Positions 11,721 through 22,665 of a stretch of 64,000 nucleotides of DNA are shown piece by piece (the stretch's first letter is position 1; the number at the start of each line of letters is the position of its first letter). The notes beneath the pieces were generated by a model that saw nothing but the letters and a program-made list of their open reading frames with translations, made no database searches and was not told the origin of the DNA. A program made the position numbers and the translations under genes. Source of the DNA: Comamonas granuli NBRC 101663 (GTDB taxonomy: Bacteria > Pseudomonadota > Gammaproteobacteria > Burkholderiales > Burkholderiaceae_C); the NCBI RefSeq assembly GCF_000739995.1, contig NZ_BBJX01000004.1, positions 372,001 to 436,000 on the forward strand, given 5' to 3'.

Positions 11721-11797
11721 TGGCCTGCCCGGAGGGACTCGAACCCCCGACCTATAGCTTAGAAGGCTATTGCTCTATCCAGTTGAGCTACGGGCAG
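11721..11797 (-). tRNA. tRNA-Arg (anticodon UCU)
   Basis: Full cloverleaf on the minus strand: acceptor CTGCCCG paired with CGGGCAG, D arm, anticodon stem ATAGC/GCTAT with loop CTTCTAA giving anticodon TCT, a T arm with TTCGAGT, and an encoded CCA end (TGG on the plus strand at 11721-11723). It reads rare AGA codons in this GC-rich genome. Confidence 0.97.
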
Positions 11798-11861: not shown

Positions 11862-13643
11862 TTATTCGAGTTCCTCGAACACCAGGCTGGGGGAGGCCAT
11901 CACGCGCATGACGTCTTCGGTGCGGGTGACCAGCCCTGCGCCCAGGTAGCCAAACGGCGTGTCGGCCTCCAGCGCGGCCTCGGCCACGGGGGCCAGGGCC
12001 TGGTTCAGGGGCACGTAGTAGCTACCGGCGGGCACGTCGATGGCGGCGCGCTGCGGGCGCGCATCGCCGTTCTGGGGGCTGGCCTCGGCCAGCACGGCGC
12101 CGGCTTCGGCCACGCGCAGCACCTGCAGGCCGTGCAGGCGCAGGCGCTCCACGGCGGGCTGGGCTGCAGCCGCCAACCAGTAGCCGCAGGGGCGCGCAAG
12201 CTGGCGGACCGGGCGCCACTGCAGGGAGCTGTCCCACTCGACGCGCAGCACCATGTCCTCACCGGTCTGGGGGTTCAGCAGGGTCAGGTCGCGGGTTTCC
12301 GGGGTTGGGGCGGCTTGCACGACGATTTTGCCCTGGCAGGCCAGGGCGCGGGTTTCGCGCTCGACGAAGGAGCGCACCTGCTCGAGCGGTGCAGCGCGTT
12401 CGGCCGTGCTGCGCAGTGCACTGGCGATGGCGTTGACCTGGGTGTGCACGCGGCGCTGGATATGCGTGCGCCCCAGGCCCACGCCGCGGCTGGCCACGCT
12501 CAGGCCCACGGCGTTCTTGAGGCCCTGCAGGTTGCGCAGGCTGTCGGGGTGCACGCCGTCCATGGCCATGCGGCGTTCGCCCGGACGGCCCGCGGGGTGG
12601 TGCGCCCACTCCACGCTCAGGCCGAGCTTCTGCAGGTCCTGCTCCATGGGCTGGTGGAACCATTCGCGCGCAGCCTTGGTGATGAATTCATGCACATTGC
12701 CCGTGGTGGCGTAGAGCAGGTGCGCGTCGTGGCGCTCCAGGCCGCCAAACTCGGTCAGCACGGCGCCTGCGGCGGGGAATTCGCCGCTTTCGAGCACCAC
12801 CGCCGGGCGGTAGTCGCGCACCAGCCGGGCCAGCGCGCGCGCCTCGGGCGTGTGCAGCAAGAGGTGGTCGTGCGCCATGTCGGTGCCGTCGCGCGTGGCC
12901 GGGACGTCCACCTCGGCGCCATCGGGGTTGGCGCGCGGCACCACGATGACGTTGATGCGCTCGAGCAGCGGTGCCAGCAGGCCTTGCGCCAGCTCCTGGG
13001 CCACGACGAGGAGGGCCTCGCTGGCGGCGGGCGCGTTGCCGTGCTGCTGGCCGACCAGGAGCACCGTGAGGCGCTTGCTGTCGGCCAGGGCCTGCGGCTG
13101 GGTGCCTTGTGCCTGCGTCAGCACCAGTGCGTGAATGGGCGCGCCGCGCTGCGAGGGCCCGAGCGCCAGCAGTTCGGCCCGGGTTTGCCTGGGGGCCGGC
13201 TGTTGGGCCAGGCGCTCCAGCCACTGGCCGATTTCCGCATTGGTGGTGAAGGCACGCCGCTCGGTCTGCAGGCCCGGCGTGTGGTACAGGATGGCCGGAT
13301 CGGGAAAGCGCGCCGCCACTGCGGGACCAAAGGGCAACTCGGGCAGGGTGCCCGCTTGCGGGGCCAGGCGCCCTATGGGAGCGGTGCGCGCGGCCTCGGG
13401 CGCGCGCGCCAGCGGTGCGGGTACCACCGTGCCGGGCTGCGCCGCGCGGCCCGGCGGCGGGATGGTGCGCACGGGCGGTGGGCTGCCCGGCGCTCCGCGG
13501 TCCGGCCAAGGGGGCAGCGGTGTGCTGCCGCACGCGGTCAATAGCAGGCTGCCCAGCACGGCGGGCAGCGCGGCGCGCGCCAGGAATGCCCCGCGCGCGG
13601 GTGCACGGACATGGGCACGGGGTGTGAGAGCGGAGGAGGGCAT
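11862..13643 (-). CDS. M14-like lipoprotein with degenerate active site
   Basis: A 593-residue protein with a lipoprotein signal (LLLTAC, cysteine near residue 38), a proline/alanine-rich linker and a fold that follows M14 metallocarboxypeptidases (VGQQHGN, PRANPDGAE, RGVGLGRTHIQRRVHT). The catalytic positions look altered: the HxxE zinc motif reads HGNA, the Asn-Arg substrate pair reads Ala-His (DMAHDH), the third zinc histidine region reads ESGE instead of DxHE, and the usual ETRG glutamate region reads ASRG. If the alignment is right, this is an envelope-anchored pseudoenzyme. The ATG at 13643 is preferred to a GTG at 13670 for the signal peptide. Confidence 0.8.
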   Translation of the reverse strand: MPSSALTPRAHVRAPARGAFLARAALPAVLGSLLLTACGSTPLPPWPDRGAPGSPPPVRTIPPPGRAAQPGTVVPAPLARAPEAARTAPIGRLAPQAGTLPELPFGPAVAARFPDPAILYHTPGLQTERRAFTTNAEIGQWLERLAQQPAPRQTRAELLALGPSQRGAPIHALVLTQAQGTQPQALADSKRLTVLLVGQQHGNAPAASEALLVVAQELAQGLLAPLLERINVIVVPRANPDGAEVDVPATRDGTDMAHDHLLLHTPEARALARLVRDYRPAVVLESGEFPAAGAVLTEFGGLERHDAHLLYATTGNVHEFITKAAREWFHQPMEQDLQKLGLSVEWAHHPAGRPGERRMAMDGVHPDSLRNLQGLKNAVGLSVASRGVGLGRTHIQRRVHTQVNAIASALRSTAERAAPLEQVRSFVERETRALACQGKIVVQAAPTPETRDLTLLNPQTGEDMVLRVEWDSSLQWRPVRQLARPCGYWLAAAAQPAVERLRLHGLQVLRVAEAGAVLAEASPQNGDARPQRAAIDVPAGSYYVPLNQALAPVAEAALEADTPFGYLGAGLVTRTEDVMRVMASPSLVFEELE

Positions 13644-13854: not shown

Positions 13855-13872
13855 TTTTTGTGTGGAGTGAGC

Positions 13873-14481
13873 ATGAGCGAGGCAACACGCTATCTGTCGG
13901 CAGACGAACGGCGCGCGGTCACCGTGGAGGCGGTGGTCGCATTGGCCGCGCAGCAGAACCCGAGCGACATCACCACCAGCGCCATTGCGCAGCACATGGG
14001 GGTGACACAGGGCGCGCTGTTTCGCCACTTTCCGAGCAAGGAGGCCATCCTGGAGGCCGTGATGCACTGGGTGAGCGAGCGCCTTCTGGCGCGCGTGGAC
14101 CGCGCCGCCGAAGCCGCTGCCACGCCCCTGCAGGCGCTGGAAGCGGTGTTCATGGCGCACATCGGCTTCGTGGCGGAGCACCCCGGCGTGCCCCGCATGC
14201 TGTTTGGCGAACTGCAGCGCCCCGGCGAGACCCTGCCCAAGAAGATGGTGCAGACGCTACTGCAGCGCTACGGAACGCGCTTGCACGGCCTGCTGGAGGA
14301 AGGCAAGGCGCGCGGGGACCTGCGCGCCGACCTCGACGTGGATGCCGCCGCCGTGCTGTTCATCGGCAGCATCCAGGGCCTGGTCATGCAGTCTCTGCTG
14401 GCCGGCGGCGTGGAGCGCATGCGCAGCGACGCGCCCCGGGTGTTTGCCATCTATTGCCGCGGCATCAGGAGCCTGCCATGA
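13873..14481 (+). CDS. TetR family transcriptional regulator
   Basis: A 202-residue repressor with the N-terminal helix-turn-helix (ITTSAIAQHMGVTQGALFRHFPSKEAIL) and a helical ligand domain. The ATG at 13873 follows a GGAGTGAG ribosome binding site; the frame's upstream ATG at 13858 would overlap the operator region. It is the first gene of an exporter operon: its stop overlaps the next start by four bases (ATGA). By analogy it should repress the operon until a toxic substrate binds. Confidence 0.94.
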   Translation: MSEATRYLSADERRAVTVEAVVALAAQQNPSDITTSAIAQHMGVTQGALFRHFPSKEAILEAVMHWVSERLLARVDRAAEAAATPLQALEAVFMAHIGFVAEHPGVPRMLFGELQRPGETLPKKMVQTLLQRYGTRLHGLLEEGKARGDLRADLDVDAAAVLFIGSIQGLVMQSLLAGGVERMRSDAPRVFAIYCRGIRSLP

Positions 14482-15632
14482 AGTTTCCCCGCATGCAGCG
14501 CCGCACGCTGGCGCTGGTGGCCGTAATCGTTCCCTTGCTCGTTCTGTTCGTCTACGTGGCGCTGCGCTCGGGGCCGCTGGCGCCGGTGGCCGTGACCGTG
14601 GCACCGGTGCAGGCGCGTGCCGTGGCACCGGCGCTGCCCGGCATAGGCACGGTGCAGGCGCGCTACACCTACCGCATCGGACCGACCTTCGCGGGGCGCG
14701 TCAAGCGCCTGGACGTGCATGTGGGCGACGCCGTGCGGGCCGGGCAGGTGCTGGGCGAGATCGATCCGGTGGACCTGGACGAGCGCATGCTGGCACAGCA
14801 ATCAGCCATCCAGAGCGCCGAGGCCGCGCTGCGCCAGGCCCAGGCGCGCCAGGGCTTTGCCCAGGTGCAGACGAGCCGGTATGAGCAGCTCCTGGCCGTG
14901 CGCGGCACCAGCGAGGAAACCCTGGCCACCAAGCGCCAGGAGCTGGCCCTGGCCGAGGCAGCCCTGGGCGCCGCGCGCGAGGATGTGGCGCGCCTGCGCG
15001 CCGAGGCCCGGGCGCTGCAGGCCCAGCGCGGCAATTTTCGGCTGGTGGCACCGGTGGCCGGCCTGGTGGCGGCGCGCGATGCCGAACCGGGCTCCACCGT
15101 GGTGGCAGGGCAGGCCGTGGTCGAGGTCATAGACCCGGGCAGCCTGTGGGTCGATGCGCGCTTTGACCAGATCAGCGCCCAGGGGCTGGCCGCCGGGCTG
15201 CCGGCGCAGGTCGTGCTGCGGTCACGGCGCGGCGAACCCCTGGCCGGACGCGTGCTGCGCGTGGAGCCGCGGGCCGATGCCGTGACCGAGGAAACCCTGG
15301 CCAAGATCGTGTTCGACACGCCCCCGGCAGCACTGCCGCCGCTCGGCGAGCTGGCCGAAATCACGGTGCAGTTGCCGCAGTTGCCCAAGGCCCCGACGAT
15401 CTCCAATGCCGCCATCCGTACACAGGAAGGGGTGCGCGGCGTCTGGAAGCTGGACGATGGAGGGCTGGCCTTCGCCCCTGTCGTACTGGGCCGTTCCGAC
15501 CTCGATGGCCTGGTGCAGGTGGTCAGCGGCCTGGCCGAGGGGGACAGGGTGGTGGTCTACAGCGAGAAGGCGCTCACGGCCCAGAGCCGCATTCATGTGG
15601 TCGAGCACCTGGCCGGGAGGAAGGCGCCATGA
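14478..15632 (+). CDS. Periplasmic membrane fusion protein (HlyD family) of an ABC exporter
   Basis: A 384-residue adaptor with one N-terminal membrane helix, lipoyl-like halves around a coiled-coil hairpin (about residues 95-185, alanine/glutamine/glutamate rich) and a beta-barrel domain. It would connect the ABC permease to the outer membrane factor. The start at 14478 overlaps the tetR stop (ATGA), and its own stop overlaps the permease start the same way. The order resembles DevB-DevC-DevA and MacAB-TolC systems. Confidence 0.92.
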   Translation: MKFPRMQRRTLALVAVIVPLLVLFVYVALRSGPLAPVAVTVAPVQARAVAPALPGIGTVQARYTYRIGPTFAGRVKRLDVHVGDAVRAGQVLGEIDPVDLDERMLAQQSAIQSAEAALRQAQARQGFAQVQTSRYEQLLAVRGTSEETLATKRQELALAEAALGAAREDVARLRAEARALQAQRGNFRLVAPVAGLVAARDAEPGSTVVAGQAVVEVIDPGSLWVDARFDQISAQGLAAGLPAQVVLRSRRGEPLAGRVLRVEPRADAVTEETLAKIVFDTPPAALPPLGELAEITVQLPQLPKAPTISNAAIRTQEGVRGVWKLDDGGLAFAPVVLGRSDLDGLVQVVSGLAEGDRVVVYSEKALTAQSRIHVVEHLAGRKAP

Positions 15633-16831
15633 TCAGCCTGGCCGGGCGCGACATCCTGCATGCCTGGGGCAAGTTCATCTTCACGGGCATAGGCCTGGGG
15701 CTGCTCATCGGTGTGACGCTGACCATGGCCGGCGTCTACCGCGGCATGGTGGACGACGGCCGCGTGCTGCTGGACAACAGCGGCGCCGACCTGTGGGTGG
15801 TGCAAAAGGACACGCTGGGCCCGTACGCCGAGTCCTCCAGCATTCCCGACGACGTCTGGCGCAGCCTGCGCACCATGCCCGGGGTGGAGCAGGCGGCCAA
15901 TGTCACCTACCTGACCATGCAGGTCGGCCAGGGCGGGCGTGACGTGCGCGCCATGGTGGTGGGCATCGCGGCGGGCGAGCCGGGGCTGCCCGGCTGGCCG
16001 CCCTACCTGGTGGCGGGGCGCCAGATCACGCGCGGGCATTACGAGGCCGTGGCCGATGCGGCTTCCGGCTTTGCGCTGGGCGATGTGCTGAGCATCCGCC
16101 GCAACCACTACACGGTGGTGGGGCTCACGCGCCGCATGGTGTCTTCCAGCGGCGACCCCATGGTTTTCATCCCGCTCAAGGACGCGCAGGAGGCGCAGTT
16201 CCTCAAGGACAACGACGCCATCCTCATGCAGCGCCGGCGCACCGAGGCCAACCCGGCGTTCAACCGGCCGGGCGTGCCGGGCCTGCTCGACGCCGTGATC
16301 GCCGCACAGACGAGCAACCGCTCCGTCAACGCCGTGCTGGTGCGCCTGCGGCCCGGTGCCACGCCCCAGGAGGTGGCCGAGCCCATACGCCGCTGGAAGC
16401 GACTCACGGTCTACGACCGCAGCCAGATGGAGGGCATCCTGGTGGGCAAGCTCATCGCCACCTCGGCGCGCCAGATCGGCATGTTCCTGGCCATTCTGGC
16501 AGTGGTCAGCGCGGCCATCGTGGCCTTCATCATCTACACGCTGACCATGGACAAGATCCGCGAAATCGCCGTGCTCAAGCTCATTGGCACCCGCAACCGC
16601 ACCATCGCCGGGATGATCCTGCAACAGGCCCTGGTGCTGGGCCTGATCGGTTTCGTGGTGGGCAAGATCAGCGCCACGTTTGCCGCACCCATCTTCCCCA
16701 AGTACGTGCTGCTGGTGCCGCAGGACACCATCGCGGGCTTTCTGGCCGTGCAGGCCATTTGCGTGCTCGCCAGCATCGTCGCCATCCGCATGGCGCTGCG
16801 CGTCGATCCGGCCGAAGCCATAGGGGGCTGA
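15629..16831 (+). CDS. ABC transporter permease (DevC/MacB-FtsX type)
   Basis: A 400-residue permease with one N-terminal helix, a large periplasmic domain (about residues 40-265) and three C-terminal helices, the MacB/FtsX layout. Substrates of such systems are usually handled in the periplasm and passed to a TolC-like channel. The start overlaps the preceding stop by four bases; one base separates it from the ATPase gene. Confidence 0.92.
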   Translation: MISLAGRDILHAWGKFIFTGIGLGLLIGVTLTMAGVYRGMVDDGRVLLDNSGADLWVVQKDTLGPYAESSSIPDDVWRSLRTMPGVEQAANVTYLTMQVGQGGRDVRAMVVGIAAGEPGLPGWPPYLVAGRQITRGHYEAVADAASGFALGDVLSIRRNHYTVVGLTRRMVSSSGDPMVFIPLKDAQEAQFLKDNDAILMQRRRTEANPAFNRPGVPGLLDAVIAAQTSNRSVNAVLVRLRPGATPQEVAEPIRRWKRLTVYDRSQMEGILVGKLIATSARQIGMFLAILAVVSAAIVAFIIYTLTMDKIREIAVLKLIGTRNRTIAGMILQQALVLGLIGFVVGKISATFAAPIFPKYVLLVPQDTIAGFLAVQAICVLASIVAIRMALRVDPAEAIGG

Positions 16832-16832
16832 G

Positions 16833-17543
<711 letters not shown>

Positions 17544-17575
17544 GCAGGCTCTGGTGCCCGCACTCCAGGAGATCC

Positions 17576-19078
17576 ATGATGCAGCAGCTTGCCATTTCGT
17601 TCTTGCGTGGGCGCCATGCGCTGGTACTGGCCCTGGCGGCCGCGCTCAGCGGCTGTGCCGCCGGCCCGGACTACCAGCGGCCGGCAGCCCCGGCCGTGCC
17701 AGGCTATACAGCTACCGCGCTGCCGCAGCACACGGCCGCAGCCCCGGGCCTGTTGGGCGAGGCTCAGCACTGGCAGATGGGCGCCGCGGTACCGGCCCAG
17801 TGGTGGCGTGCGCTGGGCGCCCCCCGGCTCGACGCCTGGATCGCACAGGCGCTGGAGGCCAGTCCCACGCTCGCGTCGGCCCAGGCCGCATTGCGCCAGG
17901 CGCAGGAACTGCAGTCCGCGCAGGCCGCGTCCACGCGCTACCCGCAGGTCGATGTGGGGCTGGGCGCGCAGCGCCAGCGTCAGAACGGCAGCGCACTGGC
18001 TCCGGCGGGCGGTGCGGCACCGCTTGCCGATGTGTACAGTGCCAGCCTTGGGGTGCGTTACCGCTTCGACCTCGCCGGCGGCGACCAGCAGGCGCGCCAG
18101 GCATGGGCGGCGCGCGCGGACTACCGCCGCTACCAGCTCCACGCCGCACGCCTGGCGCTGGCCGCCAACCTCACCGGCGCAGCCATTGCACGCGCCCGCC
18201 TGGCGGACCAGCGGGCTGCCATGCAGGCCTTGCTGCAGGCGCAGGACGAGCAACTGGCCCTGGCACACCAGCGCCTGCGCCTGGGCAGTGCGGGGCAGGA
18301 CGAACTGCTCGCGCTGCAGGCACAGGCCGAGCGGACCCGTTCGGACCTGGCCCTGCTGCGCAAGCAGGTGCAGCACAGCGAGAACCTGCTGGCCGTGCTG
18401 GCCGGGCAGGCGCCCGGCGCGGCCGCGGTGCCGGATTTCTCGCTCGCCGAGTTCCGGCTGCCGGTGGAGCTGCCCGTGCGCGTACCCTCCGAGCTGGTGC
18501 GCCGCCGGCCCGACATCCTCGCCGCCGAGGCCTTGCTGCAGGCGGCGACCGCCGACTATGGCGTGGCCGCTGCCCGGCTGTACCCGCAGATCCAGCTCAG
18601 CGCGAGCCTGGGGTCGCAGGCTTTGACGACGGGGGCCTTGTTCAGCGGCGGTTCGGCCGTCTGGGGAGTGCTTGCGCAGTTGACGCAGCCCTTGTTCAAC
18701 CCGGCCCTGCCCGCCGAAAAACGGGCAGCTCTGGCGGCGCTGGACGCAGCGGCGGCCAACTACCAGGTGGTGGTGCTCGACGCGCTGCGCGACGTCGCCG
18801 ATGCATTGGGCGCCGTGGAGCACGATGCCCAGGCGCAGGTGGCGTTAGCGGCCGGCGACGCCGCCGCGCAGGCGGCGCTGCAGTCCGTGGAGCGGCAATA
18901 CGCCCTGGGGGCGGCAGGCTATGTGCAGTTGCTGCTGGCGCGCCAGCAGGCACAGCAAAACCGTCTGGCCCTCATAGCCGCACAGGCTCAGCGCCTGGCC
19001 GATTCCGCCGCGCTGTACCAGGCCATGGGCGGCGGCGACGCCGCCCCGGAAACAGTGGCATCCCGGACCGGCCCCTGA
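17576..19078 (+). CDS. Outer membrane efflux lipoprotein (NodT/OprM family)
   Basis: A 500-residue TolC-like outer membrane factor. The signal ends in the lipobox LSGCAAGPDYQRP, the classic NodT-family start. Two repeats of long helical, alanine/glutamine-rich sequence follow, with VPSELVRRRPDI in the middle, a hallmark of this family. The ATG at 17576 follows an AGGAGAT ribosome binding site. It completes the exporter: TetR, adaptor, permease, ATPase and channel in one operon. The gene is convergent with rhlE. Confidence 0.95.
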   Translation: MMQQLAISFLRGRHALVLALAAALSGCAAGPDYQRPAAPAVPGYTATALPQHTAAAPGLLGEAQHWQMGAAVPAQWWRALGAPRLDAWIAQALEASPTLASAQAALRQAQELQSAQAASTRYPQVDVGLGAQRQRQNGSALAPAGGAAPLADVYSASLGVRYRFDLAGGDQQARQAWAARADYRRYQLHAARLALAANLTGAAIARARLADQRAAMQALLQAQDEQLALAHQRLRLGSAGQDELLALQAQAERTRSDLALLRKQVQHSENLLAVLAGQAPGAAAVPDFSLAEFRLPVELPVRVPSELVRRRPDILAAEALLQAATADYGVAAARLYPQIQLSASLGSQALTTGALFSGGSAVWGVLAQLTQPLFNPALPAEKRAALAALDAAAANYQVVVLDALRDVADALGAVEHDAQAQVALAAGDAAAQAALQSVERQYALGAAGYVQLLLARQQAQQNRLALIAAQAQRLADSAALYQAMGGGDAAPETVASRTGP

Positions 19079-19096: not shown

Positions 19097-20758
19097 TCAG
19101 CGGCCGCGCGGGCCACCACGCATGCCACCGCCGCCCCTGCGGCCACGGTCGGCCATGCTGTCGATGCTGGTGCGCATGGGATCGGGCTCTGCTGCGCGGC
19201 CGGAGTTGCGGCGCACATGCAGGCCCAGGCCGCTGTGCGTGCCCAAGTGGGCGTCGGGGTGGGGGGGCTGGTCCTCGTAGCGCTGCGATCCGCCCTCGCC
19301 GCCACGGTTGCGGCCCGGGGCCGGGCGGTTGCGCGCGGCGTTGGCCGGGCCCTGGCCCTGGCGCTGTGCCGGGCCCTTGCCGTGGGAGGCCGGTTGCGTG
19401 CCGCCGCCATGGCCCGGCTTCTTGCGCTGGCCCTGCGGGGCGGCTGCGCCCTTGCCGGAGGCGCCCGAGCCGGTCTTGTTGGCGCGGATGCGCTCCATCA
19501 TCTCGCTGCGCGCGGCCTTGGCTGCCGCCTGCATCACCTCGCGGCTGGGCGGTTTGCCCGCACCACCCCACAGCGTCTGGCGGCCCATGGCGATGGGCTC
19601 GGCCTGCTCGCCTTCGTCAGGGCCAAAGCCCTCCAGGACCTGGACCGGGATTTCCTGCTTGGTGAAGCGCTCGATCTCCATCATGAAGCCTTCTTCGTCC
19701 ATGCAGACCAGGCTCACGGCCTGGCCCTCGCGCCCGGCGCGGCCCGTGCGGCCGATGCGGTGCACGTAGTCTTCGGGCACGTTGGGGATCTCGTAGTTGA
19801 CCACGTGCGGCAGGTCGTCGATGTCGATGCCGCGTGCTGCAATATCCGTAGCAACCAGCGCACGAATCTGGCCGGTCTTGAAGCCTTCGAGCGCCTGGGT
19901 GCGGGCGCTCTGGCTCTTGTTGCCGTGCAGCGCCATGGCCGTCACACCGTTCTTCTGCAGGAAGTCGGCCACGTTGTTGGCGCCGAATTTGGTGCGCGTG
20001 AACACCAGCACCTGGCTCCAGTTGTTCTGCTGGATGATGTGCAGCAGCACCTGCTTCTTCTTGGCCCGGCCCACCGGGTGGATGACCTGGCTGATGCGCT
20101 GCACCGTGGTGTTGCGCGGCGTGACCTGGATGCTCTGCGGGTTGCGCAGCAGCGAGTTGGCCAGCTCGCGGATCTCGTCGCTGAAGGTGGCCGAGAACAG
20201 CAGGCTTTGCTTCTCGCGCGGCAGCAGCGCGAGGATTTTCTTCACGTCATGGATGAAGCCCATGTCCAGCATGCGGTCGGCCTCGTCGAGCACCAGGACC
20301 TCGACGGTGGAGAGGTCCAGGTGGCCCTGCTGTTGCAGGTCCAGCAAGCGGCCGGGCGTGGCCACGAGGAAGTCCACGCCGCGCTGGATGCGGTCGATCT
20401 GCGGGTTCATGCCGACGCCGCCGAAGATCACCGTGGAGTCCAGATCGAGGTACTTGCCGTAGGTGCGGATGGATTCCTCGACCTGGGCCGCCAGCTCGCG
20501 CGTGGGCGTCAGGACCAGGGCGCGCAGGCCTTTGCCGCCGCGCTTGCTCCGCGGTGCGGGCTGCTGGGCGAGGCGGTGCAGCAGCGGCAACGTGAACGCT
20601 GCCGTCTTGCCGGTGCCGGTCTGTGCGCCGGCCAGCAGATCCTGGCCCTGCAGCACGGCGGGGATGGCTTGCGCCTGGATCGGGGTGGGGTTTTCGTAGC
20701 CTTGCTCGCGCACGGCCTGCAGAATGGCCGGGGCCAGGTTCAGTTCGTCAAATGTCAT
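19097..20758 (-). CDS. rhlE: DEAD-box ATP-dependent RNA helicase RhlE
   Basis: A 553-residue helicase. All core motifs are visible: [10 protein letters not shown] (Q), AQTGTGKT (I), PTRELA (Ia), TPGR (Ib), DEAD (II), SAT (III) and [10 protein letters not shown] (VI). From about residue 400 the tail is low-complexity and rich in glycine, arginine, glutamine and proline, ending [10 protein letters not shown], as in RhlE proteins that act on ribosomes and structured RNA. The ATG at 20758 gives the standard MTFDELNL start. Divergent from ettA. Confidence 0.95.
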
Positions 20759-21003
20759 GAATGGGTTTGCGCCTTCCGGGCGCCGGGGATCGGCCTGCCG
20801 AAGCAACCGCACAAGGGCTGCCGACCAGTATCAGGCTGAAGGGGTTTTCTCGGACAGGACGGCGCAAGCGGGTTGCTGCGTCCCCAGCACATGCTGCTGA
20901 AGCCGGACCCACTGGAAAGCCCGGCGCGGTCGCTATTGTCGCATGAGTCGATAATCGCGGTTTGCCCACGGCACAATTGCCGCTCTTTTGACAGAATCAC
21001 TCC

Positions 21004-22665
<1,662 letters not shown>

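Follow-up and report, generated by a model that had tools for sequence, protein, structure and literature searches.

The window (the whole stretch of 64,000 nucleotides of Comamonas granuli NBRC 101663 DNA that was analysed) contains a gene predicted to encode a catalytically dead M14 carboxypeptidase-type lipoprotein that is conserved as a pseudopeptidase, a reading to which we assign a probability of about 0.75. Six of the seven key M14 positions were found to be replaced in the window protein, counting the general base at its inferred position, and H201 alone was kept. Among the zinc ligands (His-x-x-Glu and His), E204 was changed to Ala and H287 to Gly, and the residues corresponding to the substrate residues R127, N144 (which we take to be a key M14 residue) and R145 were P248, A257 and H258. 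Position 384 was Ala in the window protein and Glu in 56 of 56 complete orthologue rows, its equivalence to the base E270 being read from the sequence alone. A first-pass annotation of this DNA had reported the motifs HGNA, DMAHDH, ESGE and ASRG, all of which were present in the translation, and had concluded that apparently all catalytic residues were replaced; this holds for six of the seven, but the first zinc His remains, and the replacement of the R127-equivalent Arg by P248 had been missed. These replacements support the prediction that the window protein is without a usable M14 zinc or catalytic site.

The reading frame runs uninterrupted from ATG to stop in the translation (Table 1). 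Pfam Peptidase_M14 (PF00246) matched residues 140-246 with a bit score of 37.4, where the cut-off is 21.6 (E 2.9e-9), and it also matched all 38 complete orthologues of the alignment A1 described below. The window protein had no match in NCBIfam, and a phmmer search of the PDB with this protein as a single sequence gave no match. A lipobox-like LLLTAC at residues 33-38 (Cys38), followed by GSTPLPPWP, was recognized by inspection; on this basis the protein is most likely lipid-anchored in the outer membrane, and the surface-anchored placement proposed in the first-pass annotation would be no likelier than that of a periplasm-facing outer-membrane lipoprotein. The pattern C..[ST][PA]L[PA][PA]W occurred in 55 of the 93 orthologue rows (21/32 dead rows and 34/61 others). 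By this loose pattern the STPLPPWP-type motif recurs in complete as well as dead rows, yet the linker after it varies. Besides, a 470-codon open frame (12132-13544, plus strand) is antisense to the pseudopeptidase gene; such a frame is expected in DNA this rich in GC and is probably not a gene.

Table 1. Positions of the features in the window, with the evidence or remarks for each.
Feature	Position	Strand	Evidence or remark
tRNA-Arg(tct)	11721..11797	-	adjacency scan; 3' neighbour in many orthologous loci
M14-type pseudopeptidase lipoprotein gene (predicted), 593 codons	11862..13643	-	open frame; Pfam PF00246, E 2.9e-9
C-terminal loop region, shortened to 27 aa (residues 508-534)	12042..12122	-	median 49 aa in complete orthologues
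M14-type domain, approximately residues 105-420 (our own bounds)	12384..13331	-	Pfam match residues 140-246; Foldseek, low-confidence models
A384 (ASRG) replacing inferred general-base Glu	12492..12494	-	position inferred; ETRG in most complete orthologues
ESGE, E285-E288: G287 replacing second zinc His	12780..12791	-	orthologue, 4a37 and L002-type alignments
A257-H258 (in MAHDH) replacing Asn-Arg (N144/R145)	12870..12875	-	orthologue, 4a37 and L002-type alignments
P248 replacing R127-equivalent Arg	12900..12902	-	orthologue and 4a37 alignments
HGNA, H201-A204: H201 retained as first zinc His, zinc Glu changed to A204	13032..13043	-	sequence and alignments
STPLPPWP motif after lipobox	13503..13526	-	pattern C..[ST][PA]L[PA][PA]W
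Signal peptide with lipobox, through Cys38	13530..13643	-	by inspection, predictor-free
Five-gene block: TetR regulator, HlyD-type adaptor, MacB/FtsX-type permease, ABC ATPase, outer-membrane efflux protein (OEP)	13858-19078	+	
Helicase gene	19097-20812		in the window; order relative to ABC-F gene as in related loci
ABC-F-type ATPase gene	21004-22665		in the window; order relative to helicase gene as in related loci

Complete and dead orthologues

At E 1e-5, an orthologue match was obtained for 22 of the 26 genomes from the genus and for 39 of 149 relatives; in the family, where the limit was E 1e-20 and five candidates were scored per genome, 72 of 250 genomes had a match. At E 1e-30 there were 97 different proteins, and subtraction of four second pieces of the same loci (L049-L052) left 93 rows; the distant M14 protein L048, which was above the 1e-30 cut, was left out, and identical proteins were counted once (e.g., L054 stands for G220). 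A row was called dead if at least one of H201, E204, H287 and E384 was lost. By this definition the rows were divided into 56 with all seven residues, 32 dead, four changed only at the Arg or Asn-Arg positions and one fragment. Most dead rows (23 of 32) lack at least four of the seven residues; L030 and L091, dead by definition with one ligand changed each, could be active. The first zinc His was replaced by Q, R or E in 11 rows (L006, L008, L013, L018, L062, L073, L078, L079, L091, L096, and L099).

The three close relatives of the window protein (L004-L006), which are 69-72% identical to it, have most of its substitution pattern in common, with H201 lost as well in L006. The idea that the substitutions might be common to the orthologues was thus borne out for these closest ones, but not for the set at large, since the site is complete in 56 of 93 rows; that most orthologues are complete and that the loss is recurrent had been overlooked. 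Whether an active paralogue exists had also been raised, and L002, a complete M14 type with intact HGDE, NRN and IH motifs, was found in the same genome as the sole other PF00246 match at E 0.001, but it belongs to a different subfamily, and the pseudopeptidase gene itself is single copy in a search up to E 1. Regulation of L002 by the pseudopeptidase was weakened as a candidate role, L002 being of a distant subfamily, with matches to its type confined to 23 of 60 family genomes. Among the L002-type matches, L158 (G078) and L168/L169 (G031) contain in-frame stops and are either broken genes or matches overrunning gene ends.

Co-loss was scored over 129 columns conserved in at least 95% of the 48 crown complete rows, a column being lost by a group when all group members differed. 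The 16 groups used, which are not 16 independent losses, comprise 30 of the 32 dead rows (without L030 and L091), and the fragment L107 was left out here and in the contrast analysis below. The columns most often lost were E384 and L382 (14 groups each), N257 (13 groups) and H287 (11 groups), followed by R248 and V528 (10 groups), G363 and D356 (nine), T349, K298 and R258 (seven), G389, Y347 and G293 (six), D457 and E204 (five), and M361, H201 and R112 (four). E384, H287, E204 and H201 carry no weight in this comparison because they define the groups. The substrate positions N257, R248 and R258, which do not define the groups, ranked 2nd, 4th and 9th among 125 (p 0.0002 by permutation, with columns treated as exchangeable).

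The loop at residues 508-534 showed a median length of 49 aa in complete and 34.5 aa in dead rows. It was shorter than 39 aa in 24/32 dead and 0/56 complete rows, at a cut-off chosen after the lengths had been seen, and the earlier cut-off of 46 aa gave 26/32 and 6/56. Phylogenetic contrasts of loop length against loss gave r = -0.55 (91 contrasts, p ~1e-8, the yes/no trait being treated as continuous) and r = -0.45 without the two largest products, and an independent-pairs test at 46 aa was not significant (median p 0.25), being underpowered with six pairs on supported branches. A loop of at least 39 aa was seen in eight dead rows, including L078 and L079, in which it is lengthened to 68 aa and, in L078, alanine-rich. 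Shortening of this C-terminal loop accompanied the loss in most dead rows, and the loop may contribute to the active site.

Of the 129 columns, 59 were lost by none of the 16 dead groups. The residues E209, D259, E288, D306, R386, R397 and R398 were present in 32/32 dead and 56/56 complete rows, H260 in 32/32 and 55/56, and C436 and C486, which perhaps form a disulphide, in 32/32 and 52/56. A re-purposed enzyme, in which D259, H260, E288, D306 and R386 form a novel active or metal site for other chemistry, would agree with the retention of these residues in every dead row, but they are equally fixed in the complete copies (55-56 of 56), which fits a structural role, and the models are too poor to reveal a site; we consider such an enzyme unlikely.

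Selection on the predicted pseudopeptidase and its dead orthologues was estimated with a pairwise codon model on close pairs (11 dead and 11 intact) that were picked by us and of which some have a row in common. For the catalytic domain, omega was 0.037-0.112 in dead and 0.019-0.110 in intact pairs (medians 0.063 vs. 0.048), and omega = 1 was rejected in every pair (likelihood ratio at least 89). For the C-terminal part, the ranges were 0.037-0.197 and 0.024-0.136 (medians 0.101 vs. 0.055; likelihood ratio at least 17), and the omega values for both parts are rough in the several pairs with dS >1.5. Catalytic-domain omega was 0.047 in the pair L004/L005 and 0.083 in the pair L001/L006, again with omega = 1 rejected. 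The window protein thus has an open and selected frame despite its lost catalytic residues, and the earlier statement that the gene is intact over 593 codons and not decaying is upheld by the uninterrupted translation and by strongly purifying selection. Dead rows are also the faster ones, with a median root-to-tip distance from the crown root of 1.14 substitutions per site vs. 0.73, and together with their somewhat higher omega this indicates that some relaxation or change of function goes with the loss.

The longer branches and slightly raised omega of dead rows are what would be expected of a decaying gene, whose site was lost since the whole protein was no longer needed, and the gene was unmatched at the above thresholds in 4/26 genus genomes (three of these four being <90% complete) and in 178/250 genomes of the family sample (E 1e-20, five candidates scored per genome). 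Decay is nevertheless very unlikely, as no internal stop was found in any listed orthologue match from the genus, the relatives or the family sample, neutrality of the catalytic domain was rejected in 11/11 dead pairs, and both the columns lost by no dead group and the lipobox-proximal motif in 21 of 32 dead rows speak against it.

The locus and the number of losses

Where flanks are readable, complete and dead copies occupy the same locus and are orthologues. When 60 loci were scanned, the tRNA-Arg(tct) gene was seen adjacent to 23 of the orthologues (10 dead, nine complete, and four intermediate), misses being expected with the short flanks, and on the opposite flank 41 of 107 loci, duplicates of one another among them, carry a DEAD-box helicase gene. 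At the locus of L036, the complete orthologue of Acidovorax sp. MR-S7, the helicase gene lies directly before the orthologue and in the same direction. In the window, the five-gene block separates the pseudopeptidase gene from the DEAD-box helicase gene, its neighbour in related loci; tblastn with four of the five block proteins against the other orthologous loci (short flanks) gave only weak ABC matches. The ABC-F-type ATPase gene presumably encodes EttA. An operon partner among the neighbours was rejected, as the helicase, the tRNA and the ABC-F-type ATPase look housekeeping.

For the loss counts, the key columns and those next to them were masked before the gene tree was built, loss was taken as irreversible and the fragment L107 was scored as not dead. 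The best (careful maximum-likelihood) tree showed nine losses, and 1000 bootstraps showed 7-11 with a mode of nine; unordered parsimony allowing reversals on a quick gene tree showed eight. An rpoB tree of 37 genomes was rooted on G295 (G259 is absent from it), and its best topology, taken as a single tree, showed 11 losses over the 36 genomes left after pruning of G013, which is without the gene. Complete and dead copies were found within one genus in three cases: L068/L073 in g126 (end branches 0.045 and 0.32), L095/L099 in g175, and L009, L010 and L024 against many in the genus of the window. Apparent intermediates were present as well, with only the inferred base lost in L011, the base and a zinc His in L014, the base and the substrate Arg in L023, and nearly all residues in the window clade.

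The gene tree placed the window clade together with L007, L008, L011, L014, L023, L025 and L029 in an all-dead set of 11 rows (support 96/87). On this tree the loss in the window protein may be older and shared, and may have begun with the base, the only residue missing from L011. The rpoB tree sets the window clade apart from the genomes of these other seven rows, a conflict that could stem from the dead gene having been transferred, from recombination at rpoB or from long-branch effects, and because the two trees disagree on the place of the window clade, the number of losses is given as a range. That one ancient loss was spread by gene transfer would account for the supported all-dead set that rpoB splits, but we regard it as highly improbable, since at least seven losses were obtained in all 1000 gene-tree bootstraps, the replacement residues differ among groups and the locus is unchanged where readable. 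The site thus appears to have been lost several separate times among the orthologues, on 7-11 occasions.

Equivalence of the catalytic positions

Alignment A1, consisting of 38 of the 56 catalytically complete orthologues, was searched against the PDB and matched 4a37, a Pseudomonas metallo-carboxypeptidase, with E 1.8e-8; in the printed alignment HxxE, R, NR and DxH pair motif by motif, and all four are invariant across the A1 rows, which were picked as complete. A separate profile-profile alignment (hhalign) with 22 L002-type sequences paired the same motifs and left the base unplaced. The comparison with active M14 homologues that the first-pass annotation had in view thus confirmed these positions as equivalent to those of both 4a37 and the L002 type. 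Besides 4a37, the active bacterial M14 enzymes 4b6z and 3k2k (Burkholderia) and MpaA (5hxd) match the sequence profile of the catalytic half; all four are filed as peptidases with complete sites, which was checked for 4a37 in the printed alignment. The complete orthologues have the zinc, Arg and Asn-Arg motifs in common with 4a37, whereas the window protein keeps one zinc His. Csd4 is named as another active bacterial M14 enzyme for comparison in the part of the literature available to us.

The base was assigned to position 384 from the order of the motifs, the Glu in all 56 complete rows and the co-loss. AlphaFold models of the window protein and of a complete orthologue, built from eight sequences, showed mean pLDDT values of 59 and 60, and in both the stretch bearing the base was below 50; structure-based placement of the base was abandoned, both models being too weak there, and its mapping rests on sequence. 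The best Foldseek match of these low-confidence models was carboxypeptidase D (E 2.6e-6 for the window model and 4.1e-8 for the complete orthologue), and M14 carboxypeptidases made up 44/50 and 50/50 of the rows listed, at a query TM of 0.2-0.3. That the true zinc ligands lie elsewhere and the protein is an ordinary peptidase is extremely unlikely, for although the inferred base lies outside every structural alignment and the middle of the model is poor, the other motifs align to 4a37 and separately to the L002 type, are invariant in the complete A1 rows and, in the case of R and NR, disappear together with the other key residues.

Proposed role and relation to known pseudoenzymes

The complete orthologues are putative enzymes, as predicted from their intact motifs, and the pseudopeptidase would descend from an envelope-located zinc peptidase or amidase. 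What selection maintains would be the scaffold with its fixed polar residues (E209 to R398 above), and the lipid-anchored outer-membrane protein would bind a peptide, a peptidoglycan fragment or a partner protein in the way of dead LytM amidase regulators; the binding or regulatory role suggested in the first-pass annotation would be of this kind. Where hydrolysis is unneeded or harmful, the catalytic residues and the loop would be shed and the binding kept. On a wider reading, selection in this family would act on the scaffold, to which catalysis is an expendable extra, and the envelope lipoprotein would repeatedly and independently turn from a zinc hydrolase into a pure binder, in most cases also shedding a C-terminal loop that makes up part of the active site, while living intermediates would show the order of loss; we hold the chances for and against this wider interpretation to be about equal.

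LytM (M23) belongs to a peptidase family and fold other than M14, and NlpD is presumably an outer-membrane lipoprotein. The degenerate LytM factors NlpD and DipM have dead envelope metallopeptidase domains that regulate cell-wall enzymes, according to the available text of PMC10336132, PMC8416486 and PMC5533458; amidase regulation is reported for these factors, which offer the nearest bacterial analogy to the window protein. Some pseudoenzymes called from sequence prove to be active, as stated in the available part of PMC12037411.

M14 pseudopeptidases are already known from vertebrates (CPD domain III, AEBP1/ACLP, CPXM1, and CPXM2) and yeast (Ecm14), in which zinc, substrate or base residues are replaced, as here (available text of the review PMC11266112). 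This text gives H69, E72, H196, R127, R145 and E270 as the key M14 residues, and the pattern tabulated for CPD-III (H69, A72, D196, Q127, T145, and Y270) is much like the H, A, G, P, H, A of the window protein (PMC11266112). Unlike these proteins, the window protein is a bacterial lipoprotein with its own C-terminal part and loop, and the loss has recurred among orthologues that share a locus with complete sister copies. Within the same available text the stem 'bacteri' turns up twice (PMC11266112), on both occasions among the references, and a full-text search of the open-licence literature found neither a bacterial M14 pseudoenzyme or pseudopeptidase nor recurrent loss in a bacterial lipoprotein peptidase. 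As far as this literature shows, the present case would be the first bacterial M14 pseudopeptidase described.

Pseudoenzymes are usually studied as old paralogues in which the loss happened once. A family in which complete and dead orthologues share a locus, and which shows several losses along with apparent intermediates, would allow a direct test of a selected non-catalytic function of a peptidase fold, and the same set of orthologues could show which residues, and which loop, serve catalysis only and what goes first.
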